Shown: piece by piece, positions 1-61,722 of the stretch
Numbering within the stretch: position 1 is the stretch's first letter
How the letters are laid out: every line of letters begins with the position of its first letter
Source of the DNA: Straminergon stramineum
Taxonomy: Eukaryota; Streptophyta; Bryopsida; Hypnales; Calliergonaceae
NCBI GenBank assembly: GCA_963920665.1
Contig: OY987273.1
Coordinates: 8,248,501-8,312,500 of the forward strand
Direction of reading: 5' to 3'
Length of the DNA stretch: 64,000 nucleotides
The notes under the pieces: model-generated
The model's database searches: none
Seen by the model: only the letters and a program-made list of their open reading frames with translations
Told to the model about the DNA's origin: nothing
Made by a program: the position numbers and the translations under genes

Positions 1-63
1 GTATGTCTACTTACTATACTATTAATAGTAAAGGCTACGTCAAAACTAAGTACTTCGAAATAA

Positions 64-1099
64 TTACTTGCTTGATGTACCTGTTGATGGCAAAATCTGT
101 ACTTTGTCTATTTCTGTACAATTGCTCCTAGTTGCTTCCAATGCTTTGAGCTTTGCTAGTCCTTTAAAGATATCCTCACATCGAGAATGATAGTGCGACC
201 CACTTCCCTCCCCCAAAGACTCGCATAAGCTCAAGCTTTGAGCTCCATTTTCCTTTTGCTTTGACCTTTGAGTGGCTTGGGGGGCCCCTGGACCCGAAAG
301 CGATCTTGACCCTCGAGGAGGCCGCCTCGGCAGCGACGCATTGACATTGTCTATGTCCAGAAGTGGAGTCCCTCTTGTTTTGGAGTCCAGCGAACGGCAA
401 TGTTCTCTGAAAATTCGTTGCCTAAAAAGATTGTTGGCAAAAAGAGATCGTCTAGCTCCTGCAACTTGCAAGGGACAAGGTTGCTTATCCTTGATCCAAA
501 GAACAGTAATATTAGAAGTCAGCTTTTGTAACACCCCCCCTCTGTCATCCTCCAACGCAGCCGCCAACTTCAATCCATCAATGCGTACATAAGGAACTAC
601 AGACGGAGTTGGAACATCATCTTCGAGCTGAGGATGTTCTGGCACTTCATGCAAGGGTAGTTTTAGTTTGAGACTTGTTGTCACATCCATTCGCGGTTTT
701 GGTGAGAAGGAATTCCCACGACCCGAGGATGCTTGCTTCAACGGCGACGGAGAGCATATGGGAGTCCTCACAAGTCCGCGACTCGAGGGGCTGTCCACGA
801 CCCCGTCTTCAACGTCCCCCTTGGAATAGTCTATGGCCGCGGATGCAACGTTCGCAGCAGATCGCAGTAGGTATGGTTTGAAATATGGAGCGGTGTCGCA
901 ACTCCCTCCTTCAAGTTTCGAGGGGTTGGAGAGTGACCTTTCCGATCCAGAGAGGAGACTCCTAGTCAGCCGTTGCTTTTTCGGGTGGTTCAACAAAGCG
1001 AACACCTCCAACCTGCACTACGTATATGATCAACAAGCCCACCCACATTACCTCTGTCCAACAAATGCAAAAGCATCTTCAATTGAGACTGGGAGACAT
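64..1099 (-). pseudogene. A3, element protein of unknown function (copy 1)
   Basis: I do not recognise this protein. Most of it is one open frame of about 315 codons (1011 down to 64), Ser/Pro/Arg/Leu-rich, with no visible membrane segment or catalytic motif. Comparing the three copies suggests two exons. A short first exon starts at the ATG at 1099 (MSP...) and ends at a GTAATG donor. The second begins after a conserved AG acceptor with the block VGG-[VI]-[RH]-FVEPP. Copy 1 has an extra C in that block, shifting the frame relative to copies 2 and 3, and a TGA in the short exon. The C-terminal part (FKGLAKLKALEATRSNC) is the best conserved between copies. It is the last gene of the A1-A2-A3 group, about 130 bases beyond the A2 stop. 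Being kept in all copies suggests an element function. Confidence 0.5.
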
Positions 1100-1227
1100 G
1101 TATAGTAAACCCTGGAGTACATGGCAAAGATTCAAGGGAAATGCGAACTCAATATATTATTTACAAAAGATCGTAGCATACAAATCGAGGACTATACACA
1201 AAATGTTATCTCACATCTAGAAAGAAT

Positions 1228-2198
1228 CTACTTTACAACGTACTTCCTATGTCGGCCTCGCTCTATGATTAAGCCTATGCCAGGAAGTTCGTATCTAGAA
1301 CCCATGACCTTCGAGGACTCTTTCATCCCGTCTATGAGCAACTCCACCTTGTAGTCCCCGGTTCCCAATGGATTCAAACCAATGCGGTTTTCCTCAACAT
1401 ATGTTTGCATTTGGCCCGGTTGGCAGTTTGAATCTAGACGTCTGAGCCATGGTAGAAGTTCCCCCATGAGGGCGTCGTCTCTGCGATTATGGTGCCTCCA
1501 AGTGTCTAGGAATATGGCATTCCCATTCTCATTACAGACACTCTTGTTCGGAGAGTCGTCAATGAGAAGTGTATTATCCGAGGTGAAGGACGTGCTCCTA
1601 CTCGGATTGCAAAACAAGGTCTCGGAGAGCACTTTGATACAATGCACTTTCTCACCAAGATGAAAGAACTTTCCCGAAGAGTACTCTATCTTTTTGCATT
1701 GCTCCTCACTCAATATATCGTAGGGTGCTCTACAACCGCTGAACAGGTGTCCAGCGATGGGTTCTATGTTGCGCTTCAACATCGTGGTCCACACTAAGAC
1801 CCTATCCGCGATCGCCAAAACCTACCGGAGGAATTCACCCAGATTTTGCCGAGTGAATACCGCCTTGGGTCCGATGATGGTGGGATTTCTATGGCAGAGA
1901 ACATTGTCTTCGAGCTTGTACAGTTTGAATTTCTCCCCATAGGACTTCATCGCCGTATGGTAGAGTATGCCGTTCAAATCGAAGACAATGTTCAGCCACT
2001 TCCTCCGTAGTGGAGGAAGTACGAGAGGCACATTCCTCGGCACAATTTCTCTCCCGCCCTCCAATACTACCTGATAAAAACAGAACAACAAAGAAATGGA
2101 ATTACCTGTTTAAATGCAAAAACGGGAGATCCAGAAAGTGAATAGAAGCATTCAGTTCCCCTAATCGACTGCGGTCTCCCAATAGAAAGTGCTTTCAT
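1228..2198 (-). pseudogene. A2, FCP1/SCP-like HAD phosphatase-type protein (copy 1)
   Basis: The protein is about 311 residues. Its order of motifs matches the FCP1/SCP (NLI-interacting factor-like) HAD family, which removes phosphate from phosphoserine, classically on RNA polymerase II tails. Motif I is LNIVFDLNGIL, then VLVWTTMLKRNIEP, then NTLLIDDSPNKS followed by NGNAIFLDTW. The family motif I is DxDGT; here the second Asp is Asn, so catalysis may be lost. The start used is the ATG at 2198 (MKAL), conserved in all copies; a TAA lies upstream in frame. Residue 31 is followed by a 35-base GT..AG segment (2071-2105) whose removal keeps the frame. One in-frame TAG follows GEFLR, where the other copies have Glu or His. 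It ends at a TAG after KYVVK. It lies about 360 bases after the A1 stop. Confidence 0.6.
2071..2105 (-). other. Ultra-short 35-base intron candidate in A2
   Basis: On the minus strand this segment begins GTAATTCC, is T-rich and ends TTTTTATCAG. Removing it joins FAFKQ to VVLEGG in frame; keeping it leads to a TAG five bases past the acceptor. The equivalents at 33655-33689 and 53772-53806 are also exactly 35 bases. The third copy ends in GAG. Plant introns are usually at least about 70 bases, so this is odd. Confidence 0.45.
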
Positions 2199-2562
2199 TG
2201 GTAGTGGACGGTGCACGCTTTTTTTTTTTTGTAGTTGAGCAACAAAAACATTGAAAGCCAAAGACAATTAGACCGATGCACAAATCCATGGCAATCGGGT
2301 ATAATTTATTTACAAAGTCTACATATTACAGCCGCAAAATTATATTTTGTCTCTAGTGGACTGAAAACTACTCTAAGCACTATGATACACTATTGTACAG
2401 GGATGGTAGCCACAGATAGATTCATCGTCAACGCTAAGCAATCAAGTAGTAGTGATGACATCTTGTCAAGAAGCATGGATACAAATGAGATTCAATAACT
2501 AGTAGAAGACTTCTTAGTTGCTATCACCAAACACAATCATGAAGGACTCCAAGGTTCTGGAA

Positions 2563-5500
2563 TCAATCGAAATCATAAGGGTCAAAAGGTTGTACCTGAG
2601 CGGTTCCTTTAGGATCCTCCGGTGCCACTTCTGCTACTGAAGGTTGTCCCTTCTCGCTCTCCTCCGGATCGTTGTCGAGAAGGTCTTCATCACCAACTTC
2701 ATAGTCCACCCTTTCTTCCTCCACAGAAAAGGGAGATTGCACTTCCACACGGACTTCGCGTGATTCCTCACTAACCGCTAAATTATGAAGCTCAGTCGCA
2801 GAAGTTCGTGCTACCTCCTCGACAACATTATTGTCGCATCGACAATAATGTTCTTCTCCTTCATTGGTATCATCCTGTTGAGCAACGTCAAGAGTAGCCT
2901 CCAGATTCAAGACTTCGAAGGCCCCTTCATCTGGAGATGGAATCCTAGGCATCTGGGATGCTGGAGTTGATATGACTAGGTCCTCATGTCCCAGTGAGAC
3001 CGCCTCATCCTTATCCTCGACTCAAGGATAGGACAACCCACTGACCAAGTGGGCCATTTCTTGCATGGCTAGAGCGCTATCCGACGGCACCTGAGGTTGT
3101 GGAGTCGGAGCAACAGAGAATGTAATCGAACAGCTCTGCGATTGGCTCTTCTAGGACTGCAACACACTCAAGAGCACTACGAATTGGCTTTGCAGCTCGT
3201 CATATTTTGCGTCCGACTTCTCTTGGAGTTTAGTAATTTTCTCATTGGCAGCCTTGTTGCCCGCCAGTAGCTCAACAACCAGCCTTTCTTTTTCCTCCCA
3301 CTCCTTTTGCTTGGCTATCCTCCTCTCCCTAGCTTCTTGGTCTTTCTTCCACTAGTCCTTCTCGACCTTCACCACCACACCTGAGGGTGCGATGACAAGT
3401 TTTAGCTCAACTTGCTTGGGAACACCATCTACGTCATCGTCATCGTCTGATGAGTGTGGATGATCAATATCATCATCATCACTAATGATGATGGGATTAT
3501 CCAATCCCGTTGAGGGATTACTTTCTTGAGCTGCACGATTTCCCTAGGATCCAAACACGTCGGTAATAACGTCCTCAAAGTCTCTCCCTCGTTCCTCTCT
3601 AGTTTGCTCCTCCAGATGTCTCTCAAACTCGGTGTCGATCTCTACATCCTCGTCATCATGTTGAGTTTGCAATATGACCGGAATAGCAGGAGCGTCCATC
3701 CATGTATGGAGCTAGAATGTGTTCATCTCGAATTGATCGATTCCTTCAACACCAGGATCAGTACTTACATGTGGCCTGACAACTTCCCTCTGGCGGTTCC
3801 CCACGACATTACTTTCTAGCGGTGAGTCCATTGTCATGGGTGGTGATGGAGGTGAATTTGAAATCAAGAAGTCATTCTTATCCATCTTATTCACTAGGAG
3901 AGCAATTTTTGAGTATGGCTTTGCATCTTCTCTGTCACTAAAGCCATAGAAGTATGCACCGAACATCTACAGATCACACATAAACATTTCAGATTTTGTA
4001 TTTCCAAATCAATGTTGAATGTATATCCAAGGTACATGATATTATCGTCGACCTGAGGATAACAATGGACTGCACGTACTTCAAAGATAAAGTAAGAAAA
4101 ATTGATGAACTATACAAGATACAAGAATATCATTTCTAGGAGAGAAGATACACTAACCTTCACAGCTAGCATGAACTTTGGTCCTGCGTAGATGCCAAGA
4201 ACATTTTCATCTGGCTTTGCAAAGGCTTGTAGTATGTCCAGATAAAACTCCATCCACAATTCAATAGGATGTATCCTCCACTTTGCTTCCGTATTCTTGG
4301 ATGGATCGCTATAGTATACACATCCGGAAGGTGTGTCATATTTTGATTTGAGGCACATGCGGGCGGCAGTGGCAAAGTCATTATCCTTCTTGGAAAAGAA
4401 GAGGAGCAGCATGTCTGGAGTTTTTCCTCTATTCGTCACATTATTTAACATCTCTGCTCTATTGGGGACGTAGGTGGATATGACGAAGTCATACCCAGTA
4501 AGCCTCAGAGCTGCAAAAGAAGTTATAGCCTTCATGTCCTCCTTCCCACCGAGAATGAAGAGCCAGATATTAGGCTCAGTCATTTTCGGTTCTAGTTTTT
4601 GATCAAGGAAAGTCAGAAAGGGGTCGACAACGCTTTCGGTATCAGTTGGATTTGAGCGTGGCACCACCCTAATATCCAGAACTGCCAAGTTAACCTCTCG
4701 TTGATGATAGGTGTAATTTGTGCTGGTCACGAGCGCCTTGGCAATGAAGTCAATTCCTTGTACCTACACTCCTCCGGCGGGTTTAGGAAGTTGGTACTTC
4801 AGCTTCATAAACCTCCTAAATATGTATAGGACCTGTGGAAACTGTTTGTCAAGATCCTTCACCCGCTTCCGCCACGCATCGTTCTTGAGCCGTTTCTTGA
4901 AATACTCAGCACTAGGATGCATGAGAAGGAAATCCCACGATGCAGAAGTATACTGGTGCCTCGCCTTCCATGCTCTCCAGGTTGTATCAATGACATCACT
5001 GCCATTGTCGATGAACTTCAGAGAGGGTTTGAAGTCCATCAAATCATGGAGAACAACTTTCTTGTGCTTCCTCCTTTCTACCCAATCACCGTGCGCAATG
5101 TTGTCGGGAACTAGTATTTTTGTTCTCACAACAGAGACTTTCGGGTATATTGATTTACGCCCCGGAGTTTCACCTAGCAGGTGCTGCACAAAAACTCCAA
5201 AGTCAATGTCCATGAACCATCCGCGATGCTTGAAAAACTCTCTTTTCAAGGACATGGCTTTGATCTTGAAACCTTTAATTTCCTTGAACAATTTCAAGGA
5301 AATTGGCTCCATCAGCTCACCTTCGAAATGCTTTGTCAAAAATCGATTCCAGTATGTCCAGAGATCATCGAGTAGGGTGATGATCTGAATTTCATTTTTG
5401 AGATCTGTAGTCCCTTTGATAGAAGCACCATCCTTTTCAGGATTAATATTTTGGAATCTTTCGACAACTGCATCTGTGAAGCTCTGCATTTCCCGATATA

Positions 5501-7158
5501 ATAATTCAGTTACAATCCGACATGAAAACGATTGAATTTGTTCTTGTACTATCGTCGGGTCGACGATAAAACTATGTTAATAAAAACATAGATAGTCCAT
5601 ACATAAAGTAATTCACTAAATAGTAGTCAAACGTAGGGTTATTCATATTGGATATGATCAATTTGCATTTACATTCTCACAGGACCTGAAGAAGTTATCC
5701 TCGACTCGATGATAATGAGGAAGACCAATTGCATACCTTATAGTTCATCAAGCTGAAGACGACTTTGTTGTTTCAAGTTAAATCCTCCGAGCGAACGTCT
5801 GTCGGACGCTTACAGGCAAGCCAAATGTTTCGGCAGCTAATGATTTGGTTACCCCACGTTGGTTGAGCATGATCCAAATGATTAGTGCAATTGTAGAATT
5901 TTGAGATGTTTCGTAATTTGTTTGGATCAAGGGTCCAGACAATGAAATCATCCCAAGTTTGAAGTATTACTCGGTGGGATTCTCCACAACCTCCTTTTTG
6001 AAGCTCTTTTGAAGCCGTGATGCTGTGTTGACCGTTGATAATCACGAATCGTCCATTCATGATTTCATCCCACTTCTCTGGCTTTCTTTTCAAAAGCTGA
6101 TTATGAGAATCGACGGGGGTAAGGCAAACCTTCTAGCTCTGCTTCATGTCAATAAGTTGAATGAGTTCATTCTTCACAGCAGCAACGATATCCTTCTACA
6201 TTGTTCGAATGACATATTGATCACTAGCCAAGATGCACTGTTTGATGTCCACAGATACTGTTTCCTGGCTGAGTAAGAAACAGGCCTTGTGGTCAGCCCA
6301 GAAGTTTCTTTGAATTAAAGCAAACTTCTCATAGTCTGGTTGTGGAGGATTGGAGGATGCTGGACTTGCTGATACAATCGTGAGCGCTGATCCTGAACTT
6401 CCAGCACCTGCAACTCCTTCGGGAAGACTTCTCTTTTTCTTCTTGCTAGAGAAAGGTGCTTCCGTTGAGATGTTGTCTCTCTTTCTGGTCGTCGATTTTG
6501 TTTGACCTGGTCTTGTTGCTTTGTTGGCTAAACCACCGGCAACAGACCCATCCTGAAGACAACTCTCGGATTCCCCTCTTTGACCTTGTAAGGGGTTTCT
6601 ACTGATTGATGGTGCAGGCTCGACATTTGCCAAGGCATATCGATCAAGAGTTTGGAAAATACAACACAATCTAGTGGCATTGGACTTTGTTGTGCCATTT
6701 TTCCAGGGAACATAGCCAGATCTCTCAAATTCCTCATTGAGGGACTCCATCTGCGACCCCTCCAAGAATGTCATCAGGTTCTCGAGATCAAACTTTCTAT
6801 AATAAGAATTTATGTTGATTACAATGGAGTGACAGTGGTCTTTTTGGTTTCCATTCTCATCAACTTCGTAGAGCACAATGGCAACATAATTGCTCTAGTG
6901 ATCCTCAATCACTGTCACTTTCTCTTTCATATTCTAGGGAAGGTAGCTTGTTTTTCCCTGAATTCGGTATCTGAGATAGACATAATTTTTCCAGCGGTTC
7001 ACACCGAAGGTCCACGTGCTGATATGATCTTTGAACTCCCATAGCATTCCGTAGCTATTTGCCATTTCATCGATGAAGGGCTCATCGTTCAAGGGGTTTA
7101 CGAAGGGCTGAAGATGATGCGTTGTTACAGAATAATTGTAGAGATCTTGCTTCTCCAT
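2563..7158 (-). pseudogene. A1, ParB-like plus DNA-methyltransferase-like element protein (copy 1)
   Basis: Three phase-0 exons can be placed by comparing copies: 7158-5737, 5483-4158 and 3966-2563, about 1380 codons. Residues about 1-260 are unrecognised; then comes a KKKKR basic linker. Residues about 356-450 carry GRFVIINGQHSITAS, resembling the ParB/sulfiredoxin-fold 'G.QH' motif, followed by VWTLDPNKLR and HLDHAQPTWGNQI. Exon 2 ends with HPIELWMEFYLDILQAF and ENVLGIYAGPKFMLAAK, and exon 3 starts MFGAYFYGFSDREDAKPYS. Together these match motifs X and I and the following strand of beta-class N4/N6 DNA methyltransferases (KPxxLLxRxI, then VLDPFxGSGTTxxAA, then RxxIGxExxxE). No DPPY catalytic motif is visible. 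The tail is coiled-coil and acidic and ends at a TGA after FDPYDFD, shared by all copies. About ten in-frame stops, nine of them TAG, make it a pseudogene. Relative to copy 2, about 25 codons are deleted near 3860. Confidence 0.55.
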
Positions 7159-7874
7159 CTTCAAATCCTGCCAAGTGATTTGTGCGAATCTATCAGAAAT
7201 TGATCTATTGTCGATCCGATGATAAGTTTATTTGGATTGATGGAGGAGAAAATTTATTGATCATATAATTATGTACTGTTTTCTAAACGTTTTATATATC
7301 TTATTAACTCGATGAGAGTTGCAGGCAAGTGAAGATACATAGATTTCATTGAACATTAACATTCATTTCTTTCTATCTTAACGATTTTTTCCTTTGACGT
7401 CGGTTTCTGAGCATGAAATTAGTCATATTTCATATCATGGACGTCCAAATGCTTCTTTTTTATTATTAATTTCTTCATGTTCTCTCTTCTTATTGGTGGA
7501 GGAATCTTTAAATCCTTCTAAACGTATTGTCGGGTCGACAATACAAGTAGAGACTATTATAGAGACTGATATTTTCTTAAATATTTTATATGTCATTTTG
7601 TAAATTTGTTAACTGAGATTTCATCGTCAACTCGATGATAAGGTGGCTGACTCAGGAGATGGTGCTTTTTCTGTTAATTAAAGCATTTTTGCTATTCTTT
7701 GGTGGGAATGTGGGAATTAGAATTTGGAAGTTATCAAGCTTTTCTTTAGATTATCATCGATGACTATATCCTCGAGTTGACGATACGTTTCTTCTATAAT
7801 TAAAACCCTAAACATGGACAGTTTGCATAATAATCTGTTCACTAGGTTTGTAATGTACCCTTGACTTGACGATA
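3011..7874. repeat. 19-bp palindromes in A1 introns and leader, copy 1 (9 sites)
   Basis: Sites close to TATCSTCGASTCGASGATA lie at 4043-4061 (intron 2), 5550-5568 and 5696-5714 (intron 1), and 7206-7224, 7525-7543, 7622-7640, 7767-7785 and about 7856-7874 (between the A1 first coding exon and a putative 5' exon). One further site, 3012-3030, lies within exon 3. Each is an imperfect palindrome of two 9-base arms around one base, so it could form a hairpin in RNA or bind a dimeric protein in DNA. A partial site is at 7751-7763. Confidence 0.8.
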
Positions 7875-8009
7875 CGTGTCTTTGAATAAGCTAAACCCTA
7901 CAATTGGAGAGATTGAAAACAAAAACTGCGTACTAAGATTGAATTGAGATTCTAAAATCCTAAATCATAGACTAATCTATATAAAATAGAATACCTGAAA
8001 CCTGACTTT

Positions 8010-8960
8010 GCTGCAGACTTCTTGAATGTTCTTGGAGATTGAAATTGGAATTCTTCCTGATTGGAGTATAGACCTGCAAGCATTGAAAAGGAATCTCATA
8101 AATTTCAAAAAACTCTAAAATTTCAAGAAACTCAAAACTTTTTGGTAGAAGTCAATGATTTCTAAGAACAGCAGAACTACAAATTCCAAACACAATAGTC
8201 AAAACACAATTCTTATAGAAACCCAACAATCAAAACCCAATTCTTAAACAACAACTCTACTGTGTGAATGCGCCACCACGACAAAATTAGAGAAATGAGA
8301 AAAAACTTTCGGAAAACATTCATTGTACAACAATCAAGCAAAAACAATTGTCAAGTAAGCTAATTCTTAGAAGGAAACTAGCAATGTAGCAAATACTAGG
8401 AATACTACCAAGCAATGCAACAAATACTAGCAAGAATAGTGAGAAACAATGAGAAATCCAGCAAAAAAAAGCTCAAAAATTTCTGAGAATTGTACCGTAA
8501 TTGTGAGCTCCCTGAAGTGGCACGCAGAGCTGAAACTCCACACTTGAATCAAAACCTTGAACTACAACTCTAACCTCACTCCACCACCATCAAAGAAACT
8601 GGTAGCACGTTGAACAAAAAATCGAGCAAGCCTCGGGAACGTCCGCAACCAAATCGTTGGAAAGTGAGGAACTCCACGTTCGCGTACACAAGCTCCAAAA
8701 ACTACTCAATGCTGGCGGAAAGTGATACAAGAACAAGAATCAAAAATTCAAACTCCACATGAAAACGAGAACCTGAACTTCTGAAAACAAATAGTGTCGT
8801 CCACCGCGAGCAAGGAGAGAAAAGACCTCCCTAAGCTAAACCGAGCCGCCATTCCAGGTTCGGACTCCACCGAACCAACCGCGCCGGTTCCAAACCTAAG
8901 GTGTGGTCAACAGGTCCGTTAATTCTCCCGCACTTGAGCTAATGCTGAACCTAGACGTTC
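8010..8960 (-). promoter_or_regulatory. Probable 5' leader and promoter region of A1, copy 1
   Basis: This stretch is conserved with 26650-27736 on the other strand, and its 8010-8960 part is richer in GC than its surroundings. On the minus strand it reads into a leader ending AGCAAAG/TCAGG. The equivalent in copy 2 ends AGCAAG followed by GTGAGG, a good splice donor at 27737. That suggests a non-coding or short-coding first exon here and a leader intron holding the palindromes. No TATA box could be assigned with confidence. Confidence 0.35.
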
Positions 8961-10575
8961 AGAACCAAACGTGAGGTGTGGTAATTTTAGAATTTCTTTA
9001 ACCCCTAAATGCCCAAGGCTTGTTTTGAGTTTTAGGGTACTTGCTCTCAGTTTATCAAAATGCCAGCATTTTGATAAGTTGTATAAGTTTTTTTGAACTA
9101 TAACTATACAAATTCGAAGTAGAAATTTTATAGATCACATAGGGAAAAAAATCACTTATGGAGTGAAAGATTATAAGTCAAATCTAAAAAGTTTGACAGG
9201 TGACCAAAAACATTTGAGGTTAAAAGGGCCTAACATGCATAATCCCAATCAATTTATGGCTTCTCAAAATCTACTGTACAATTCTTTTAAATGAATTTTG
9301 AATGTCATTATTTCTCAAAGATCTAGTGTATTTGAGGCTCATTTCCAAGAGCCCTCAACACTACGGAAAGTCAAGATTGCAATGGGTACCCTTGCAGAAA
9401 ATCTTGGATATAAAAATCAATATCATTCATTTTCAAAATCAGATTTGTGATGCTAAAACTAGACTTCAAAGAGAACTTCCCAAAAATACAAGCTTCTCAA
9501 AATAGCAAATTGTTAGGGTTCACTTTAAGTCCAATGTTTTGCAAACACACTCTAGTGCCTAGGGCATTTAGGGGTTAACCTTTGAATGCTGGGCTGGTGA
9601 CCATGGAAATCAACCATTTCCAAAATGTGTGATATCATTCACTTTAGATCATTCCTTTCCCCCCCTAATTGTGAGGATGAATAGTTGCAATTCTGACCTA
9701 CAGGTGAAAATTCCTTGTCATTCAGTCGACAATAAACATCCATCGTGATGTTTAGAGGTTAATTCTCTATTCCTTGTAAGACGTACTACTAACCATGGAA
9801 ATTTTGAAAATGCATTACATAATGAATTTGTAAGAAAATGAAAGTACTCATTGGATGTCAAAGCATTTTGTATGATTTATGCTTTTTGACAAAGAATCTT
9901 TGGAGTATTTCAAATTTTACTTTTCTTCTACATTGAACGAAAAATTGGTTAGCACTAGCTAAAAAAAGATTGCAACATTGTTTTCTTAAGTCATCTACAA
10001 AGTTTAAGGCCCCTGACCCCTTAACGACTCAGGGTTTGGAGAGACTCACCATCTACTTCACCATATTTTTGATGAAAAGAGAATACAGTAGGCTTTAGGT
10101 CCACAATGAGAGACTATATTGAAGGCAAAAGAATTTTCTATCATACATATTGTAGTTAAGTACATTTTCCAAATGTCAAAACACCAAGTGAAAAAAAATG
10201 TTGAACGTGATAAATTGGGAAGTGTAGGGTGGTTCTAAAATAAGTTGTTTGTATACCATGGAGTCAATCCGTATTATTGGGTAGTGAGATACAACCCTGG
10301 AGAACAAGTCAAGTGTACCTAGAGAAAGGCCACTGTGACAAAATTGATGGCCTCTAGTCATTACTCATCAGACTGAGCGGTATACACAATTCAAGTGTCA
10401 GTTGCAAGGTTTGAGTGTTAGTTGTGAGATTTAGAGATAAACTTTGAAATACCATATCGTGTTTAGGCACAAAATTTCCAATGCCAAATGAATATTTCTA
10501 TTTACTCCTAAATGCCCAATCAACTATTCATGGTTGATATAAAATTTTAGGCTTCACATTGTGTAGGCAAAAAAA
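8960..10575. repeat. Non-coding part of the inverted arm, left copy
   Basis: No gene is visible. The stretch is AT-rich and matches 25040-26650 in reverse complement at roughly 95% over the parts compared by eye. The match fades at about 10575, beyond the block containing ATATCAACCATGAATAGTTG. A 61-codon open frame at 10176-10361 occurs in both copies with one difference, which is expected from overall DNA identity and is not evidence of coding. Confidence 0.7.
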
Positions 10576-14430: not shown

Positions 14431-14431
14431 A

Positions 14432-20067: not shown

Positions 20068-20169
20068 TTCTTCTTTCTTAATATCTACATTGTATTAATT
20101 CACCTAAACAAGATTGGGTCCATTGCTAACTCATAAAGCATCGTATACAAGCACAATGTAGGCAATTCC

Positions 20170-44630: not shown

Positions 44631-44683
<53 letters not shown>

Positions 44684-47160: not shown

Positions 47161-47545
47161 GGGTGTTGGAATTATGGTATTCTTGAATTCTTCCATTCTT
47201 TTGTGCATTTTTGATTTCGTGTAGATTATGGTGTTCATATAAGAAATTTTGAGTTTTGATTCTCTAGTACCAACTCAAAAATCAACAATTAGAATCCTGT
47301 GCTTCTTTGAATTCGGAGATATTCACAAACTTCTCCTCTAATCATTCAAATACACTAATAGTACTTTTGTATGACTAAAGGTTTCTAGTCTATTTTCAAA
47401 TTCACAATTTGGATGGGGAAGGCAATCCACATGGATTTCCATGAATTTACAAGTGAAGGTATGCAAACCATCTACAATACCTAGGGTTCATGCCTAAAAA
47501 TTAGGTTTTTGGTTGTGAACATGAGATATTCAAAGTACTTATCGA

Positions 47546-50500: not shown

Positions 50501-52863
50501 GTTTCAAGATAAAGACAGTGTCACTGAAAAGAGAATTTTTCAAACATTGTGGTCATTTTATAGACAATGATTTTGGGACCTTTGCACAACATCTACTTGG
50601 GGAAACACCAAGATGGCAAGTTGTTTATCCAAAAGTCTCTGTGTCGAAAACAAAGAGTCTTGTTTTGGACAATCTTTCACAAGGTGACTGGGTGGAGAGG
50701 AGGCAACAGAAGAAAGCTGTGCTCCAAGATTTGATGGCTATTAAGTCTACCTTAAAGCTTACATATAGTTGTGGGGACATTATTGATGAGACATGGAAGT
50801 TTTGGAAGGCGAGACACAGGTTTACATTAGCGACATGGGATTTTTTGATCTCAAACCCCAAGGCCAAATACTTTAAGAGGTGTCTCAAGAATGATGTATG
50901 GCTAAAGCGTGCAAAGGATCTCAAGAAGCAATTTCATGAGGTGCTTCACATATTCACAAGATTTATGAAGTTGAAGTACCAACTCCTGGACTAGGTCGGC
51001 GGAGTCCAAGTTAGAGGAATCGACATGTCCGCAAAGGTGCTATTGACAAGTACCAATTATCAATAGCACAAACAGGAGGTGAATCTTGTAGTCTTAGATG
51101 CTCGAAAGGTTCATAGAACAACCTTGATTGAAAATATAAGGACCATCGACCTTGTCCTCAATTTCCTCCTTCAGAAATTGAGTCCAAAAATGACTAAGCC
51201 AAATGTTTGGCTCTTGATTCTGGAAGACAAGGAAGACGTCAAAGCTGCAATTAAGTTCGCAACTTCCAAACTTGAGCAGTATGAGTACGTGCTATCTACG
51301 TACATACCAAATAGGGTAGAGATGCTCAATAATGTAATGAATTGAAAAATTCCTCATAACATGTCACTGTTCTTTCTTTTTAAGAAAGGCAATACTTTCG
51401 CAATTGCTGTGCATGGACTACTGAAGTCTAAATATGACACGCCCTCTAATTGCGTGTACTACCTAGATCCTTCAAAGAACACACAAGCAAAGTGGAAGAT
51501 TGAGCCTAGTGAACTTAGATTGGAGTCCTACCTAGACATCCTTCAAGCTTTTGCAATGCCAATGAATAACGTCCTTGGCCTCTATTCAGGTGTGAAGTTC
51601 ATGCTTGCTACAAAGTTAAGTCGACCCCCTCTAGGAACTAGTTATTGTCGGTTCGAGGATATTGATTAGAGTTATGTTTGATTAGACTTTAATTTACTTT
51701 GCTAATTTGTATCTTATCCTTGACTCGAGGATAACATCACATTTATGGGACCTATATGTAGGAATGTGATTGTGATGATAATTACTTAATTATTTTGTTA
51801 TCTGTTGTAGATGTTTGGAGCATTCTTTTACAGTTTTGTTGACAAGGATGAGGAGAATTCATATTTGAGAATTTCTAATCTAGCAAAGAAAATGGATAAA
51901 AATGATTTCATGTTCTTGAATTTGCCATATTTGCTATTATACAAAAAATAGTAGGTCATGGACCTGTGGTTGTTCATTCAAATTCTCCTTTGTCATCGCC
52001 TTTCACACTTGAATCACCACCTACAATTCTTGTCCCCATGAATAGAGAGAGGGAGTCGATGGGTCCTCATGTATGTACTGTTCCTGGTGTGGAGAGCATT
52101 GACAAGTATGGAACCAACACCTTTTAGATTCATATGTGGATGTCAACTCTAGCCACGCCTCTGTTATTGCAAACTATGAACAATGAGGAGGATATGGAGA
52201 CGGATACAGAGTTTGAACGCTAGCAATAGTAGCAAGTGGTGCTTTCATCAAGAGGGGCAAGAATTGAGGCCAAGCAGGATGTGATCATGAACAAAGTTCT
52301 TGGGTTCGATGACATCCATGTACTTGAGGAAACACAACCTACTTTGAGAAATAATTTTCTGATGTCAGAGGAGGCTAGGCTTATCATCATTAGGGACAAT
52401 GATGATATTGATCATCCCCATTCTTTTGACGATGACAAGATGGAGGATGGCATTTTGTCGGTGATGGAGATGAAACCCATTGTTGCACCCTCAGGTGTTG
52501 TTGTGAAGGTGGAGAAGGATTGGTGGCAGAAGGACAAGGAGAAACAAGAGAAAAGAATTGCATGGAAGGCAAAGAGGGAGGCAAAGGAGAAGCAACTAGT
52601 AGATGCAATAGCGAAAAATGCAGAGACAAATGCCCAAATGCTAAAAATGCAAGTGGAGTCAAAGGCTCAGTTCTTTGAGTTGAATAGTCAAGTTGCACTA
52701 CTCTTCTAAGTGATGAATTCGAAGAATAGCCAATCTCAAAGTCAATTGTCATTTCTTTTTAGGGCTCCAACACCACAACCTCTACCTTTGACAATCAATG
52801 CTCCTATGGTGTAGGAAATGCAACATCCAGTGTCTACATTGCCTTATCCTCGAGTCCAGAATA
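47546..52863. repeat. 19-bp palindromes in A1 introns and leader, element 3 (13 sites)
   Basis: Leader sites at 47546, 47586, 47722, 47926, 48013, 48160, 48211, 48298 and 48445; intron 1 at 50208-50226; intron 2 at 51643-51661 and 51715-51733; one exonic at 52845-52863, at the same exon 3 position as 3012-3030. Many read TATCATCGAGTTGATGATA, that is, the consensus after C to T changes at CpG, made on both arms so that symmetry is kept. Confidence 0.8.
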
Positions 52864-53315
52864 ACCAAGATTGTATTTCTCTCGTGCATGATGATCTAAT
52901 CAACTCAACCCTAGCATCCCAATTGCCAAGGGTTTCTTCTCCCAATTAAGTGGCTTTTGAAGTTCTCCTTTTTGAGGCCATGGATGGCTCTCAAACAAGA
53001 GACAACACACAAGTTCTACAAGAGTATCAGCGAGGCGATGATAAGGGCGAAGTGGAATTAGGACCTGTTTCCAAAGTAGTTGCAACGAAGACACCGGTCT
53101 GCAGCACATTGTCTCAGGCCTTGTTGGAGTTGCAATCACCATTGTGTGTAGAGGAAGAAAGGGTTGATAACAAAGCTAGTGATATCAATATCCACAATAA
53201 TGTCCCGGAGGAGATGGTAGGGGGGCCTCCTACTTTAACCGCAGTAGGAGGGGATGAGCCTCAAGAGAGTGGATCTGCTTAGGTACAACCCTCTAACCCC
53301 TATGGTTTTGATTGA
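48635..53315 (+). pseudogene. A1, ParB-like plus methyltransferase-like protein (element 3)
   Basis: Exons at about 48635-50050, 50290-51614 and 51811-53315. The intron 2 acceptor is strong (TCTGTTGTAG), but the intron 1 acceptor AG is lost. The ParB-like motif reads QFMIING-stop-YSITTS. The methyltransferase-like end is PSELRLESYLDILQAF, then NVLGLYSGVKFMLATK, joined to MFGAFFYSFVDKDEENSYL. At least sixteen in-frame stops, fourteen of them TAG, mostly where other copies have Trp (TGG) or Gln (CAG). The exon 3 tail is acidic and coiled-coil (EKQEKRIAWKAKREAKEKQL). The shared final TGA after YGFD is kept. Amino-acid identity to copy 1 is moderate, so the same protein was maintained in a diverged lineage before decay. 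Confidence 0.55.
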
Positions 53316-53678
53316 GTCCATAAAATGTGGTGTCATTACTGATTGTGTGTATGCCTTAGAGCAACAAGGCTTCAAGTAGAGATCAAATCTCATATGTACC
53401 CATGCTTCATGGCAGGATGGTGTAGCCCCTCATTGATTGCTTGCAAGTGGATTACAAATCTGTCTATGGCTCCTTCTTGTGTAAGTCTAGTGTAGCAGAG
53501 TTCTATTAGAATAGATTTTGCGGCCCTATTTGAAACATAAAATTTTCACATGTATTATCTAATCTATGGAAATAAAATATGCACATTTTCATGAATACAA
53601 ATAGTCTAATTGGATCCTACTTTGGATGTTTTTGGTCCCCAGCTTGAAAAACATAAGAGTGTGCATTGCCCGCTGCCA

Positions 53679-54649
53679 ATGAAAGCCCTTCCTAATGGGG
53701 GACCGCAGTCGATTTGTGGAATTCAATGCATCTCTTCCCTTTCTGGCTCACCCGTTTTTGCATTTAAACAAGTAACTCCATTTCTTTGTTGTTATGCTTT
53801 GATGAGGTAGTATTGAAGGGCGGAAGAGAGATTGTGCCTAGGAATGTCCCTCCTGTACTTCCTCCACCTTGGAGGAAGTAGTTGAACATTGTCTTCGACT
53901 TGAACAGCATACTCTGACAAATGGCAATGAAGTCCTATGCAAAGAAATTCAAACCATACAAGCTCAAAGACAATGTTCTCTGTCACAGAAATCCCACAAT
54001 CATTGGACCCTAGGTGGTATTTGATCAGGAAAATCTAGATGAATTCCTTCAACATGTTTTTGCGATCGTAGATAGGGTCTTAGTGTGGACCATGATGTTG
54101 AAGCGTAATGTAGAACCCATTGTCAAACACCTGTTTAGCGATTGTAGAGCACCCTACAATATTCTCAGTCAAGATCAATGCAACAAGATAGAGTACTCTT
54201 TAGGGAAGTTCTTTCTTCTCAGTGAGCAAGTGCATTGTATGAAAGTGCTCTCTGAGACCTTGTTCACCAATCCTAGAAGGGGCATGTCCTTCACCTTGGA
54301 TAATACGCTTCTCATTGACAACTCTCCAAACAAGAGTGTCTGCAATGAGAATGGGAATGCCATATTCCTAGACACTTAGAGGCACCATAATCGCAAAGAC
54401 GACATCCTCTTGGGGGAATTTTTGCCATGGCTCAAACGTCTAGATTTGAACTGCCAACTGGGCCATATGCAGAAATACGTCGAGGACAACCAGATTGGTC
54501 TAAATCCATTGCGAGCCGAGGGCAACAATGTAGACAAGCTCATAGACGAGATGAAAGAGTCCTTGAAGGTCATGGGTTTTAGATACGAGCTTCCTGGAAT
54601 AGGCATAGTCATAGAGCAAGGCCGACGTAGGAAGTACATTGTCTCCTAA
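53679..54649 (+). pseudogene. A2, FCP1/SCP-like protein (element 3)
   Basis: MKAL start at 53679, 35-base intron candidate at 53772-53806, then LNIVFDLNSIL, VLVWTMMLKRNVEP and NTLLIDNSPNKS. TAG replaces Trp in the RKW block before motif I, and three further stops are visible. It ends at a TAA after KYIVS. Motif I again has Asn at the second Asp position, so that change is ancestral to all three copies rather than recent decay. Confidence 0.6.
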
Positions 54650-54775
54650 AGTCATTGTGGATGTGAGATGGCATTCTGTATAGTCTTTGATTTGTATGCT
54701 ACAATCTTTTGTAAATAATATATTGAGTTTGCATTTCTCATGAATCCTTGGCATGTACTTCGAGATTCACTATCC

Positions 54776-55830
54776 ATGACTCCCATTCCCAATTCAAGTT
54801 GCTCTTGCATTTGTTCAATGGAGGGTAATGTGGGTGGGCTTGTGGAATCTGTACATACTATAGGTTGGAGGCATTCACTTTGTTGAACCACCGAAAAGAC
54901 AAAGGCTGAGCAGGAGCCTCCTCTCCATATCAAAAAAGTCGCTCTCCACTCGATCGGAATCCAAGGGCAAGAATTGTGACACCATTTTGTATTCCAAGCC
55001 ATATATGTTGTAGTTTGCCACAAACGCCGCATCTACGACCATAGACTACTTCAAGGTAGATATGGAAGATAGCGTCGTGGATAGTCCCCCAAATTGCAGA
55101 CATGTAAGGACTCCCATCTGCTCTCCTTCGTTGCTAAAACAGGCATCCTCGACCTAAAGGGACTCTTTCTCCCCTGCTCTACAAATCGACATTGCAACCA
55201 ATCGCAAACTAGACCTACTAGTCAACGAACCTGTAAGTAGTCCTCAACTCAAGGATGCCCTTCTATCATCACTCGAAATCCAAGTGTTTCCTAATGACAT
55301 TGCTAGACTAAAGTTGACGCATCCATTCAACCACGAGACAAGGAGTGCATTGCCTATTCCCACAACTACTACTCTTCGACCTCAGCTCGAGTAGAAGCAG
55401 CCTCATCCCTCTCTATCTACCGAAGCCAAGTGATCTCCTTCAATTGATAGTCTTTTTCGGCAATGAATTTTCAAAGATCATAGGAAGTCCTTGGACTCCA
55501 AAATAGCTGGGGCTCGAGTGCTATACATAGACAATGTCAATGCCTGGCTACCAAGGCTACCTCCTCAAGGGTCACAATCACTTTCCACTTTAGAGGTACC
55601 ACAAGCTAACTAGAGGCCAAAGCAAAAGAACAATGGATCTCAAAGTTTGGATTTGCGTGGAGGGTGAACGGTGGAAGTAGGTAAGACTATCATTCTCGAC
55701 ACAAGGATATCTTTAAAAGCCTGGCAAAGCTAAAAGCAATGGAAGCAACCAAGAGCAATTGTACAACCAATAGTGATGCCTAGGCCACCAATTCTAGTTC
55801 TTCAAGCCAAAAGAGCTTTGGGGTCTCTCT
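54776..55830 (+). pseudogene. A3, unknown element protein (element 3)
   Basis: First exon MTPIPNSSCSCICSMEG is open here, confirming the short-exon model. The second exon after the TATAG acceptor (about 54862) reads VGGIHFVEPPKRQRLSRSLLS before a TAG at the 'PYMLL' position. The rest is broken but recognisable through the FKSLAKLKAMEATKSNC block at about 55710-55760. The end is uncertain. Confidence 0.45.
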
Positions 55831-56235
55831 TACTATTAATAGCATGGAAATAATCACGAAAAAATACTTAGAGTCATTGAGTACTATTACATATATGGTA
55901 AGGCTCTTTGTTTCTACTTACACTCTAGGTAATCGTTTGCCTCCATAATTCAATCACGTCAAAGGACATTGTGAACAAAAGTTACGTATTCAAACATACT
56001 AAACTTAAAATCCTTTGCATTTCTTTTTTCCAAGGACTTTGCTACATTACATAAACAAACTTCTCATGTCCCCTCATGAGTTGTTGCAATCAATGAAATT
56101 CTACTTACTTGTTTTAAGTCATTTGAGCCCAACCCTTATTCAAAACTATCTATCATTGGTATTTATCCTTGGGTTTGACAACTATTACTTCAATGGAGTT
56201 TTGCACTCATTTTTCAAAATCTCAAAATGACTATA

Positions 56236-56260
56236 TTGTCTCAATTTAATGAATAAGGCC
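56236..56260. repeat. Element terminal repeat, A3 side (element 3)
   Basis: Starts TTGTCTCAATTTAATG and ends AATAAGGCC. One C to T difference from the 36117 copy. Similarity to the other termini ends at 56260. Confidence 0.65.
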
Positions 56261-57660
56261 ATGTATGGTGATCAATTCAAATTTGGTAATGGGTTTCTAC
56301 ATGCATCCATCTTTTGGACTAAAAATACTTTTCAATCATATTCATAAACCTTTCCATCCTCATTTGGCAACTCTTTGCACATTTTCAAAAGAAATGGAAA
56401 ATTCTTAGCGAAAAAAGATTACTTTAATCTAGTGAGAAATATACATTTGTATTGAAATCCTACAAATTGGCCCAATGGTTCCCCCCCAAGAAGGGCTGGT
56501 AAGTTACTTACTTTAGACGCAACCCCTACCGCTTTCATGTTGTCCTTTTGCAAAGCTATTTTTAATATGTAGAAAAAGTGTAATATTCCACCAAAAGTCA
56601 TGTAATAGTTGTTAGACACTTGTTGAACTACAAATAGAAAATACATCATATCAAGGTTAAATATAGTCATATGTCCCCTACGTAGTCACTTAAACTAGGA
56701 ATGAGAGCAATGTTCTTGACAAGAACACACTTACCACAAAGCAAGAATTCTAGCCACTTTTTTAGAAAAGGTAATTTCTTTACAGAAATACCCTGTGACT
56801 TCAAGCTTACGCCAAGTGGTTTAGGAATCATATTAGTCCTTTTTGGACCTATGGCAATTTGTTGGCTTTGCTCCACTAGTCTAAATTTCAAGGAATGACG
56901 ATAGAGGGGCCACAAAACGGTAGTGTAAGTGAATTATTGCTTCAAAATAAAACCGTTGCATCATACAAAAATAGTGGAGACAGTGGTCCTACTTCTACCT
57001 CAAATAAGAATCAGAAGAGCGCACATAGTGATTCACAATCCCTTCAAATGTGCATGGATCATCCGTACTATGGCTATCATACTTGGCTGTTTGAAATTCC
57101 CTATAATTTATCTTGCCATGATTTTCCCACCTATGTGCATTGGTCTCTTTGCAATGACCTAAGCATTCCATTCTTCTTCTTTCTATGTTTGCTTGCTATT
57201 GTTGTTGGCGTCTTGTGTTGCTTAGTCTGTATTTGCGTTTGTGTGCACTTTGTCACAACCTTGTGTTGTCCTCGATTCCCTTGCAGCCGACTTGAAGTTC
57301 CGTGTAGGAGGTACAAGCTTGAACAAGCCATGTCATTTATTACAGTGTTACATAATTTGGTATGTTCTTTGCAAATATCAATTACAAGGACATTGTGTTA
57401 TTGTTGTATTTGCAAGTCTTTGAATGCTTCTTTAATCACTGACTTAAGTGCAATACAAATGAATGCACTATGTGTATGATACATAATATCGTAAATGCAT
57501 TTGCAATCATGTAGTGCTAATTTCAAATTCTATCATATTGTTGTTTCTTCATATTGGATCATTTGCGCGAAGAGAAAAATCGAGTATTCCCTACAAATGG
57601 GGTGGGTTTTACAAAATTTATTATGTAATGGATGAAAATTACATTTTCCAAGACCAAAGT
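56261..57660. other. Between element 3 and the diverged gene B; no clear gene
   Basis: Short frames on both strands, none with recognisable motifs. The 57160-57330 part is pyrimidine-rich and could be leader or promoter of the following gene B copy. I see no second terminal repeat separating the two units. Confidence 0.35.
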
Positions 57661-57667: not shown

Positions 57668-58789
57668 ATTCAACTCAATTCGAGATGAATGGTATCCAAT
57701 GACTTGGTCATTAATATTAACTAATATCTATGATTCAACTTAAATTGAGTTGAACTGTCTGTGAGTGGACAATATAGAAGTAGGTAATGAGTCTATGAAC
57801 TAGTACATCAATCACAGTAACTTTAACTCACATCAAGTTGAATAACAGAATTCTTCAATTTTTAGAATGAAAATTTCAAGAACAACATTATAACACATTT
57901 GACATTTCCAATAAGATTATATCTTGAATTATTTAATATTAGTATTTTTGATAACAGAGTTCAAATATAGTAAGAAGTATTGTAATATATTAAAATTGGA
58001 TGAACTCATTTAACTCCTATAGACTTGAATGTATAATTACTTGAATTGTAAGTTTTTTGACAAATTTTTAACTCATGGGAAAGACCCATGAAAAGATCAC
58101 TCATGAATCACTTAATGGATTGCAATGATTATCTAATACAATATTTATTTTAAGAATACCCTTTCAATTAGATTCAAGTTGATTAGACATTTGTCGATGC
58201 ACAATCCTCTGTGACTTTTACGAAGTACTGTGGAATATATTTTTCTGTTCCTATTCGATTGGAATTTAATAGAACAAAATTTTGAAGGAATTATTAGAAT
58301 ATTGTGAAATGTCATCTTTAGCAAATTGAATAGTCTTGTATTGGATGGAATTAACGTCATAGATGGTAGACACAATTTTAGTTTCTCGTCCTCTAGTGCA
58401 TATCTTCTCTACATTATCTACAATTTAAATCAAATCCCACATTCAAAGGTATGGATCTATCAGTTGTATAGTGGTTTTTTATTGGGAATTTCTTTCATCC
58501 ATTAGATGTGTATTTTTCAGCTCTTCTATTTTAGAAGAACAAATCTTGAATTTCATATTTCTTGGTCTTTTGATGCTCAACTTCTCTTCTGTGTCCAACC
58601 GTCTTGGCTTGGTTGTCTTGTTTTGCATTTCATTTTAATGCAATGGATTCTTCACAATTGTTTCAAAAAGAAAATCATATTTCTCTATTTTTAAAATTGT
58701 GATCATGCACTATATATATTAGAACAATATTGACATTGAGAGTATAGTATTTGATATTACTTGGGACTTCAACTCAACTCAAGTTGAAT
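57668..58789. repeat. Cluster of six 23-bp palindromes upstream of diverged gene B
   Basis: Sites at 57668-57690, 57733-57755, 57821-57843, 58008-58030, about 58162-58184 and 58767-58789. The half-site is ATTCAACTCAA, then one base, then its reverse complement. They occupy the same place (5' leader intron) as the ten 19-bp palindromes of element 1 but share no sequence with them. Confidence 0.65.
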
Positions 58790-58881
58790 TTCATGTACTA
58801 ATATGCATTTGAATTTCTGTATGCATTTTATGCCATTCTTGTTGCAGTCATTCAAATAACTCCAATGTTTTTGCAGAGAGC

Positions 58882-61722
58882 ATGGAGTTGACAGGGCTAA
58901 CCATAGAAGAGTACTTGTTTGATGAAGGAGAGGTTGAAAATGCCCCAGAAGTTAATGTGGACATTCCTAACTGCGAAGGCATTCCTAGATGCCTTTGGTT
59001 CAAAAAAGTTATCGCCATACACAATGAGACTCGTTTGTCAGTGGCAAAGAGAATTTGTCACAACGTAAATTTCGATATTGTCTATGGCTATAATGGCCCT
59101 GTGGGGAGACAAGTGTTATAGTCCACATCTTGTAGTCTCTGAATATTGCGGATTTTCCAAAGGAATGGAGGTACTCTCTTCATGCATGGCCAATCGAGAA
59201 GGTGTACTTGAATGGGGCAAGTCTTTGAGATCACGAGGTTTGATATGAGTATAATTGTTGACAAACAAGCCTCTCACAACCTTCAACATCACATACAATG
59301 AGACCATATACAAGCTTGGTCAGAAATCCTCCTACTCAAACTTTTGTAAAGGCCAATGAACTACTCACTCAAGAGTCTATCAATTCCATTTCCAGCAAAG
59401 TTTGTTGCTCAAACAATTGTATTCAACCTTTTCCCAAAGAGAAGATTCGAGCTTTCCGTGAACGTATGTACCACAATAGAATGTTTGAATTCCGATACCA
59501 CGTACATGAAGTTGGATGTGCATCGGTAGGTCCATTGTGATGCTCTAGGTAAGAGGGTGGTCACAATGGGAGGCATTGATGTTTGGATGGCGGCATGGAG
59601 GCAAATTTTAGGTGTCTCTGAATCCACCTTCCATCATTTCCAAGGGTGCACTGCCAGAGGTGAACAAGCTTAGCCGCATGGTAATGTGGGCATGCAAAAG
59701 CCTCGAAAGCTTATTTCGCAAGCCATTGCGACATTGAAGTGCCTACTTGAGAAGTCTGCAAACCATATGCCACACTGCACATAAACTCTTCCTTCTGGAC
59801 AAAAGGTGGTGTCTATGGTTTTACCAACTGCCTTCAAATGGAAAGAGACTATTCTAGAGGTTAATGCTACAAATGAGGTGTTCAATTTAAAAGAAGTTTC
59901 AGCTTTTAATATCAGTAAGATCAAAAAATTGAACTTCCCTCAATACAACGCAAAGAAGCCCGGAGATAACTTCATACGTTGCTCTAAATGTGAAAGATTG
60001 TAGACATTGAAAAGAGTTGTTGCTATGGGCTTACAACAAAAATGGATCCACCTCTTAGAGAAACATTCAGCTATAGCTCGGGTGCATTAGGACCACTATT
60101 ATGTAAGCTAGTATAGGTCATGCTCATACCCTCATGAGTGCTTGACAATTATACACGACAAAATGGATCATGCAAAAACAGCTTCTTCAATGTTTTCCCA
60201 CAAAAGCAAGCAATTGGTTGGACTCATGAAGCTACCAATCTCAATGACTGGGATGATTGCTCATGGGCACAGTCATGTGCATTATGCACATTACGATCTC
60301 AATATCTTCCTTCTTGACTCGAACTACATAGTGGGGTCGTTTGCCAAGCTTTTGCGGGACATTGAACTACCCTCCACATACTCTTCTCAGGAATTGTTTG
60401 TTGGATCAGGCTCTACTCCTCTATTTTAGGCGATACTATAAAGTGCAAACATTTGCAAATCATTGCTTCAACCAACACCTAAAGTCGAAATCCCCACAAC
60501 TCCCTTTCCACCGGTTTTGAATGTTGAAATGGACAATGCTAAAGGAGACAACAAGAATAAATTTGTATTTGTGTTCTAGTCTCTTCTTGTTGCTAAGAAG
60601 ATCTTCTGTAAGGTTTATGTCAATTTCATGTTGGTGAGTCACACACATGACGATATTAACGCTTTGTTTGGGAGGTAAAGTATGCAATTGAAGAAAGAGA
60701 ACTTCCCTACCATTCTATACTTGATGAAGTCCTTCATGGATGTGGATTCAGTGCCTATGATTCTTCATCTCATTGAGGAGGTACCAAATTTCAAATCTTT
60801 CATAGAAGGCTCCATTCTAGAAGAGGAGGATAGACCTGTTGGCCATACCAAGGCGCAACAATTCAAGTTTTATCTTAATTCCACAAGTCTCCCAATCATG
60901 AAGTACAAGTAGTACTACCCTAACAGTGATTGGCTACCTAAGGAAAGTAGGGGGAATAAATTGTGGCATGAGGATTCGGAAGGACAAAATCTATGGCCTT
61001 GTAGGGAGCCAATACCCGTTGTACACCTTCTAATGTAGAGCTTGGATGACGTTTACAAAGGGATATCTAGATTCACCAAGTATTAGGAGACATTATGTAA
61101 TGAAGATGGAAATGGGGAATATAGGAGACAGTTTGAGCATTTGGCATTCTATTGGCGGACGGACAATACAACCTTGAATGAGCCTATTGAACCTTTCGCA
61201 GCTTTGCAAGACAACTTTTGGCCTTCATCTCGAATTGAGGTGACAGAGGATGACCAACTTGATGAAGATGATGAGGTTCATGAGGAGTTTGTTGAGGATG
61301 ATGCATTTGTAGGGCAATTTTGCAATCACCCATTGTCATCTTTCCGAGTGGCACGTGATCTCCTCGAAGGATACTTTGTTGCTATTTGTCCAACTGATGG
61401 TGATACTAAGGCTATATGGATTGCTAAAGCCTTGTCTGATCCTTTCACTAATTTGAATCATTCTAATTGTGTGTTGATTCAATACTTTTGTCCCATGTTA
61501 AGAGAGAAAAATATTCAAGAGTTCTATACTAGATGGGACTTCGCAAAAGGATTGTGTTAGAAAGTTGACAAGACCCAAAACCTTGTTTGGGATGAAACAA
61601 ATTCTCTAATGACAACCTAGAAGTCTAGGGTGAAGAAGGACATAGTGGAGTGTATCTTGAAAATCCCATTTGTTCAAATTGATGTTATCAACAGAAGTTT
61701 GGCTTCATACAATTTTGAGTGA
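58882..61722 (+). pseudogene. Gene B, putative DUF7869-type transposase (diverged copy)
   Basis: The start ATG at 58882 follows a good acceptor (TTTTTGCAG) and aligns with the start of copy 1. Conserved blocks: PRCLWFKKVIAIHNETR, KVCCSNNCIQPFPKEKI, TIIHDKMDHAKTASSMFSHK, MTGMIAHGHSHVHYAHYDL, MDNAKGDNKNKFVFVF, and SHTHDDINALFGR, where Gly and Asp of the copy 1 block are changed. It ends at a TGA at about 61720. A frameshift lies between 59120 and 59510, with many stops. The TAG in the HR-stop-VH context (59527) is at exactly the same residue as the TAG at 17287 in copy 1. Amino-acid identity to copy 1 is only about half, showing an old separate subfamily. No A genes of this subfamily are seen nearby. 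Confidence 0.6.

Follow-up and report, generated by a model that had tools for sequence, protein, structure and literature searches.

What mobile entity, or entities, does a moss chromosome carry where three copies of one gene group, A1-A2-A3, lie within a short distance and a divergently read gene, B, accompanies one of them? We addressed this question in a 64,000-nt window (the whole stretch of DNA analysed; Straminergon stramineum OY987273.1, 8,248,501-8,312,500, forward strand), and searched the window's own assembly for further copies.

Gene order and element architecture in the window

The initial annotation had described three A-unit copies with one gene order, and these were borne out at 10575..1 (-), 25023-36143 (+) and ~48580-56262 (+). 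The features are as follows.

1..20069 (.): element 1, complete but for its A-side terminus, with a 4-bp target duplication
67..1017 (-): A3, function-unassigned uninterrupted ORF of 317 aa, outermost A-unit gene
1231..2109 (-): A2, HAD domain resembling FCP1/NIF and interrupted by one in-frame stop; Asn takes the place of the second Asp in motif I (DLNGIL)
2566..3966 (-): fragmented coding segment separating A1 from A2, acidic/coiled-coil-like on visual inspection
4113..5576 (-): C-terminal portion of A1, interrupted by one in-frame TAG; predicted fold of a beta-class DNA amino-methyltransferase
5776..7227 (-): N-terminal exons of A1; 5998-6045 holds the ParB-like motif INGQHSITASKEL; exon joining and ParB likeness judged by eye
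16672..19518 (+): B, DUF7869, probable DDD transposase, ~950 codons, in-frame stops in this copy
17917-17946, 18286-18321, 18403-18447 (+): Asp blocks of B
20043..20069 (+): B-side terminus of element 1 (27-bp terminal inverted repeat), then 4-bp target duplication CTTC
25023..36143 (+): element 2, A half only; A-side terminus 36117-36143
28542-31650, 31803-33200, 33651-34513, 34726-35667 (+): A1, coil, A2 and A3 of element 2
41686..56262 (+): element 3, middle (41686-43202) and A half; A-side terminus 56236-56262
48584-51621, 51811-53312, 53768-54643, 54891-55765 (+): A1, coil, A2 and A3 of element 3
58945..61689 (+): decayed, older DUF7869 gene from a different lineage, with 19 stops and 39% aa identity to B

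The A-side terminus of element 1 lies at C11:8248092, ~0.4 kb left of window base 1, giving the element a full extent of C11:8248092-8268569 (20,478 bp). Within it, B reads toward one end and the A1-A2-A3 group toward the other. The outer sequence that had been thought common to the A3 and B sides was indeed found at 20043 (past B), 36117 and 56236 (both past A3), and its 22-base core did not occur once in 100 shuffles. The two units were found together only in the leftmost copy; no B was detected beside copies 2 and 3 in the window. The gene at 58945-61689 is a relative in the DUF7869 family but, judging from its low identity and many stops, a much older one. We left it unassigned to the window copies because the one site past it that resembles a terminus, at 62534 and with 5 substitutions, was judged too weak. 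The hAT-like gene at 21235-23889 is unrelated and lies outside element 1, and an Rfam scan returned 0 matches.

Termini and target duplications across the assembly

The termini are 27-bp terminal inverted repeats (TIRs) ending in AAGGCC. Searching the assembly with the 27-base terminus (at most 1 mismatch) yielded 219 occurrences, compared with 0 for the reversed-pattern control. A ~10-fold excess was seen on one 17-Mb contig, a point relevant to the influence of giant elements on chromosomes of this kind. The initial annotation had suggested looking for termini at element spacing, with matching ends and a short target duplication. Among the 100 termini listed, 25 neighbouring pairs faced outward at 17-27 kb from each other (random mean, 0.25), and an exact 4-bp target duplication (TSD) was present at 29 of the 35 pairs tested, as opposed to 1/380 for non-partner ends.

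Two of the three A copies in the window were found without B, as might be expected if A and B were carried by separate transposons that had common termini and were often neighbours. Outward pairs at 12-45 kb comprised 17 A-B, 1 A-A and 1 B-B (40 A-end and 40 B-end places used), and the last two could likewise be read as separate carriers. However, the lone A-A pair consists of window copies 1 and 2, which are 36.6 kb apart and represent two different insertions. Moreover, every pair typed at both junctions had one A end and one B end (20/20), and in 18 of these 20 a single duplication spanned the whole unit. We therefore rejected the separate carriers, which we regard as extremely improbable. 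A and B do lie between the same termini, and the proposal of one large mobile element with both units holds up: a single TIR transposon, in most cases 18-21 kb long, contains two divergent gene units.

Coding content and its possible roles

Conserved Asp-rich blocks had been noted in B, and three Asp residues (D419, D545 and D587, P0005 numbering) are invariant in all 39 aligned proteins; these would constitute the catalytic triad. A predicted DDE-like fold is moderately supported, and B is probably a DDD transposase, which gives Pfam's uncharacterised DUF7869 a probable role. Searches with B returned one PDB sequence match (E 0.37) and a best E of 0.13 in a viral fold library, while a piece of B had no match in a phage collection. 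Pieces of A1, A3 and B gave only weak matches in NCBIfam and PHROGs. In three B copies, 16 of 18 stops differ from the L063 sense codon by one C>T or G>A change (the direction of change is presumed), and on this ground TAG recoding was set aside.

The methyltransferase-like cargo claimed for A1 is supported at the level of fold: its C-terminal part has a DNA amino-methyltransferase fold in the predicted structure. The catalytic (D/N/S)PP(Y/F/W) motif was found in 0 of 35 aligned homologues (of 52 found), and we therefore claim no methyltransferase activity for A1. The FxGxG motif was likewise absent in 35/35; by eye, D-x-R and YxGxKF occupy apparently equivalent places to DPPY and FxGxG. Pfam gave scattered weak matches only on 35 A1 homologues. 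As for the ParB-like cargo, the resemblance persists at the level of the N-terminal motif, but no ParB match for A1 was obtained in Pfam, NCBIfam or PHROGs. A missing fold or ParB match was not counted here as absence of the domain.

The FCP1-like nature of A2 is supported by the Pfam NIF domain PF03031 (E 1.1e-11 and 3.3e-6). FCP1/NIF phosphatases of the HAD family have the catalytic motif DxDx(T/V). Motif I of A2 reads DLNGIL or NLNGIL in the five copies where it was located (copy 1, copy 2, L059, L061 and L064) and deviates from the catalytic motif in all five; in copy 3 it was not located. A phmmer search of the PDB with A2 recovered no FCP1 structure, only designed TPR proteins with no single stretch passing. 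A3 has 30 homologues, all unnamed.

Could such a gene set be what is left of a large, transposase-carrying DNA virus after integration? Several genes together with an adenine-methyltransferase fold, and the methylation-type decay seen in the B stops, would be in keeping with this, and a giant-virus insertion has been published in the moss Physcomitrium (PMC12344493). Against it stand the precise termini with target duplications and the occurrence of one gene set in the four elements whose interiors were read (window element 1, L059+L060, L061+L062 and L063+L064). Furthermore, the scanned ORFs (part of all ORFs) contained no viral hallmark domain, and 0 of 67 (A1) and 79 (B) pattern matches in viral contigs were confirmed, in a scan of limited reach. 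With no viral relative confirmed and precise duplications, we rejected a giant-virus remnant as highly unlikely and retained the transposon.

Divergence among copies of A1-A3 and B falls mainly at synonymous sites, with very different depths, and A1, A2, A3 and B are all constrained at the protein level. We infer that the A genes form an inherent part of the element and are not recent passengers. B, with a putative RNase H-like core, would cut at the termini and insert the element into unspecific 4-bp targets. A1, through its ParB-like part and methyltransferase fold, may bind or mark the element's own DNA and, with FCP1-like A2 and A3, could counter host silencing or assist transposition. More tentatively, and with considerable doubt, the element might be a land-plant giant transposon with a multi-gene self-marking or counter-silencing module (ParB-like part and methyltransferase fold with replaced catalytic motifs, altered-site FCP1-like HAD, A3), whose cassettes were exchanged between element lineages with a shared transposase. 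Selected multi-gene accessory modules of this kind offer a testable system for self-marking or self-protection of eukaryotic transposons.

Relation to known transposons and methyltransferases

Several transposon groups were considered and rejected. The target duplication of piggyBac and Kolobok is TTAA, which accounts for 1/18 duplications here; that of hAT is 8 bp, compared with 4 bp in the moss element. The giant KDZ and EnSpm elements, which count among the closest systems known, have duplications other than those of the moss element. In algae, giant KDZ and EnSpm are similarly large, have accessory genes and are enriched on Ectocarpus sex chromosomes, but use other transposases, as described in PMC12477816. 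Ginger, with TGTNR termini and, in Ginger1, a CCGG/CCGT duplication (according to PMC2836005), was rejected given the AAGGCC termini and varied duplications.

With a probability of roughly 80%, we read the whole as one mobile unit, a giant DNA transposon whose copies are mostly 18-21 kb and which most likely belongs to the Sola superfamily as a Sola1-like member, set beside Sola1 by descriptions. It has the 4-bp TSD, TIRs and three conserved Asp characteristic of Sola. As the superfamily is described in PMC10741241, PMC9033089 and PMC3627910, its members share TIRs, 4-bp TSDs and a DDD transposase, some exceed 15 kb, and they occur in moss (Sola1 in Physcomitrella; PMC10741241, PMC9033089); accessory genes are on record for Sola2, whose amoebozoan elements carry Fanzor1 (PMC3627910). 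These descriptions differ in containing no ParB-methyltransferase cargo, and the comparison with the moss element is by features, not sequence.

That DUF7869 marks out a DDD superfamily of its own, without a name so far, whose 4-bp TSD and ParB-methyltransferase gene arose in convergence with Sola1, seems to us unlikely. It would fit AAGGCC termini and a DUF7869 not tied to a Sola1 sequence, and our literature search found no mention of DUF7869. Yet size, divergent ParB-methyltransferase gene, DDD residues and 4-bp TSD all agree with the descriptions of Sola1-1_Ec32 (PMC12477816) and of Sola, and Physcomitrella, where Sola1 is recorded, has DUF7869 proteins related to B at 45-50% identity.

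Among methyltransferases, A1 is close in fold to the beta-class enzymes M.BceJIV, M1.HpyAVI, RsrI and CcrM, and the bdelloid DNA cytosine-N4 methyltransferase is listed among its closest; unlike them, A1 has neither the DPPY-type nor the FxGxG motif.

The closest described relative of the Sola1-like moss element is Sola1-1_Ec32 of the brown alga Ectocarpus, likewise a DNA transposon (21.5 kb) with a ParB-like and N4C/N6A methyltransferase gene that is read from the other strand than the transposase, the only accessory gene in its description (PMC12477816). Given this element and Sola1 in Physcomitrella, the moss element is, by analogy, not wholly new in kind, and the statement that no described plant element has this gene set needs qualifying: the brown-algal type is in print. 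Apparently new are the occurrence of a larger gene set in land plant DNA, the altered motifs and the mosaic evolution. A giant transposon type reported from algae thus occurs in many copies in a moss-like genome, where it carries a larger conserved gene set, adding to the algal plan an FCP1-like gene, A3 and an acidic segment, with a methyltransferase that lacks the canonical motifs.

Element copies and termini in the window

The group A1-A2-A3 (A1 being ParB-like and methyltransferase-like, and A2 FCP1/NIF-like) occurs three times in the window, once on the minus strand, in a copy that runs to base 1, and twice on the plus strand in copies ending at 36143 and 56262, in agreement with the gene order described in the initial annotation. 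The B gene, a probable DDD transposase of the DUF7869 type, and the other features are:

16672-19518: the one B gene in the window
58945-61689: much older B relative, a DUF7869 gene in decay that belongs to an older lineage (39% amino-acid identity to B; 19 stops)
20170-20369: N gap of 200 bases, close to the hAT-like region
20518-23892: hAT-like transposase region, in which 21235-23889 carries DUF659 and hAT dimerisation domains
39058-39303: 98-base tandem repeat, within 36144-41685
47931-48472: 285-base unit present as a tandem pair, directly upstream of A1 in element 3 (the third copy from the left)

The common outer sequence claimed beyond both A3 and B was recovered as a 27-base terminus, TTGTCTCAATTTAAYGAATAAGRCCTT or near, located beyond B at 20043 and beyond A3 at 36117 and 56236. 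A match to the first 22 bases of this terminus arose 0 times in 100 shuffles. The window spans C11:8248501-8312500, and the leftmost copy is an entire element whose A-side end falls just beyond it (C11:8248092, on the same contig). The hAT-like region is unrelated to the giant element, and no convincing terminus was found within the window for the DUF7869 gene at 58945-61689. The expected place of the B half of element 3 (36144-41685) holds other sequence, partly G+C-richer.

Paired ends and target duplications across the genome

Searching the assembly (326 Mb, 59 contigs) with at most one mismatch, we found the terminus pattern 109 times forward and 110 times in reverse, and the same pattern read backwards, as a control, 0 times. 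Copy numbers from the genome searches are lower bounds, only the best candidates being scored and no more than 100 places being listed. The initial annotation had proposed looking for termini at 18-25 kb spacing. Among 100 listed places, all mismatch-free, and with a range that we set at 15-30 kb, 25 outward-facing neighbouring pairs were detected, 16.8-27.0 kb apart, compared with a mean of 0.25 and a maximum of 3 in 1000 random placements; one neighbouring pair faced inward. The remaining 50 termini had no partner among those listed at 15-30 kb, which truncation, nested insertions or a mismatched partner would explain.

We typed ends using 40 A-end and 40 B-end places (beyond A3 and B, respectively), the best ~40 of 165-175 candidates each; a partial second match to B was excluded. 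At 12-45 kb, the outward pairs comprised 17 A-B, one A-A (window copies 1 and 2) and one B-B, besides one inward and two same-strand pairs. Exact 4-bp duplications flanked 8 of the 12 A-B pairs (from the 17) with both flanks at hand, and 3/3 further pairs taken from the listed termini, as read from their flank sequence. Reading both junctions of the 20 not-yet-seen pairs of the 25 revealed an A end paired with a B end in every case, with an exact 4-bp duplication in 18, compared with 1/380 non-partner junction combinations. Overall, 29/35 tested pairs carried the duplication, and the duplicated 4-mers varied in sequence. These junctions place the element end at AAGGCC..., with the duplication directly outside. 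Both the placement of A and B units between the same termini and the short target duplication anticipated for such copies are supported. Inside four elements (element 1, the leftmost copy, and L059+L060, L061+L062 and L063+L064, each named by its two termini), those whose interiors were read, the A group and B occupy opposite strands (4/4). The first three measure 19-20.5 kb; L063+L064, of common layout, measures about 18.1 kb, a length found in several of the 25 outward pairs.

Exact termini number 16 in the first 5.81 Mb of C11 (17.4 Mb), the stretch that the listed places cover, and 84 in the 307.4 Mb of contigs C1-C10, making them, among those listed, about ten times denser on C11. Similarly, C11 holds 22/40 A ends and 19/40 B ends of the places used from the best-scored candidates. 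C11 might be a sex chromosome.

Gene conservation and a probable mosaic history

A2 encodes a NIF/FCP1-like HAD domain (PF03031, E 1.1e-11 in L059), and no FCP1 structure was matched in a sequence search of structures. Where located, motif I has the sequence DLNGIL or NLNGIL (5/5 copies), and motif IV retains its DD in 4/6; the exceptions, copies 2 and 3, have DN. For A3, 30 homologues were matched, all unnamed, and a domain search returned no recognised domain. B has a stop-free frame of 955 codons in one copy; among the 120 matches listed, its named relatives belong to mosses (Ceratodon purpureus and Physcomitrium patens), on which basis the host is described as moss-like. Equal-sized contigs (46150, 460842, 493283) appear in both the A1 and the B match lists for other assemblies, which suggests that the same unit may also be present there.

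Synonymous divergence from the reference L063/L064 (NG86) differed gene by gene: 0.14-0.16 for B, 0.25-0.34 for A2, 0.55-0.80 for A3, and at or near saturation for A1 (pS 0.74-0.98). From this difference, we read the history of the element as mosaic, with segments probably recombining between element lineages; a clock running faster in A1 only is a less likely alternative. A further sign of patchwork exchange comes from a middle segment that lacks long ORFs (9176-10575 in copy 1, 25023-26423 in copy 2): the two copies are 93.7% identical there, but 77-86% in the parts alongside.

By NG86, dN/dS ranged over 0.29-0.33 in three copies of B; in five copies each of A2 and A3 it ranged over 0.22-0.37 and 0.27-0.45, respectively. 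A1 had a dN of 0.11-0.27, and the acidic segment between A1 and A2, under less constraint, 0.20-0.38. Since all these figures include decay after insertion, working copies are probably under stronger constraint. The A genes thus act as functional components of the element.

Proposed working and known relatives

With the termini, target duplications, gene order and conservation established, a methyltransferase fold supported for A1 and a DDE-like fold moderately supported for B, we propose that B would excise and insert the element, A1 would recognise the element's own DNA, and A2 and A3 may help it escape silencing or move. C>T-type changes account for 16/18 stops in three B copies, which fits cytosine methylation of dead copies; on this view, the A genes might reasonably serve in counter-silencing.

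Searches of an open-access library returned no description of a moss element with this A1-A2-A3 and B gene set. Published accounts describe similar elements. Sola elements have 4-bp TSDs and a DDD transposase and are present in Physcomitrella (PMC10741241), where a Sola1 is tabulated (PMC9033089); amoebozoan Sola2 elements, also with 4-bp TSDs, carry Fanzor1 (PMC3627910). In Ectocarpus, the 21.5-kb Sola1 family Sola1-1_Ec32 encodes a 1104-aa protein with ParB-like and methyltransferase domains on the strand opposite the transposase (PMC12477816). On these grounds we file the element as a Sola1-type giant element, an assignment whose support is good, though indirect.
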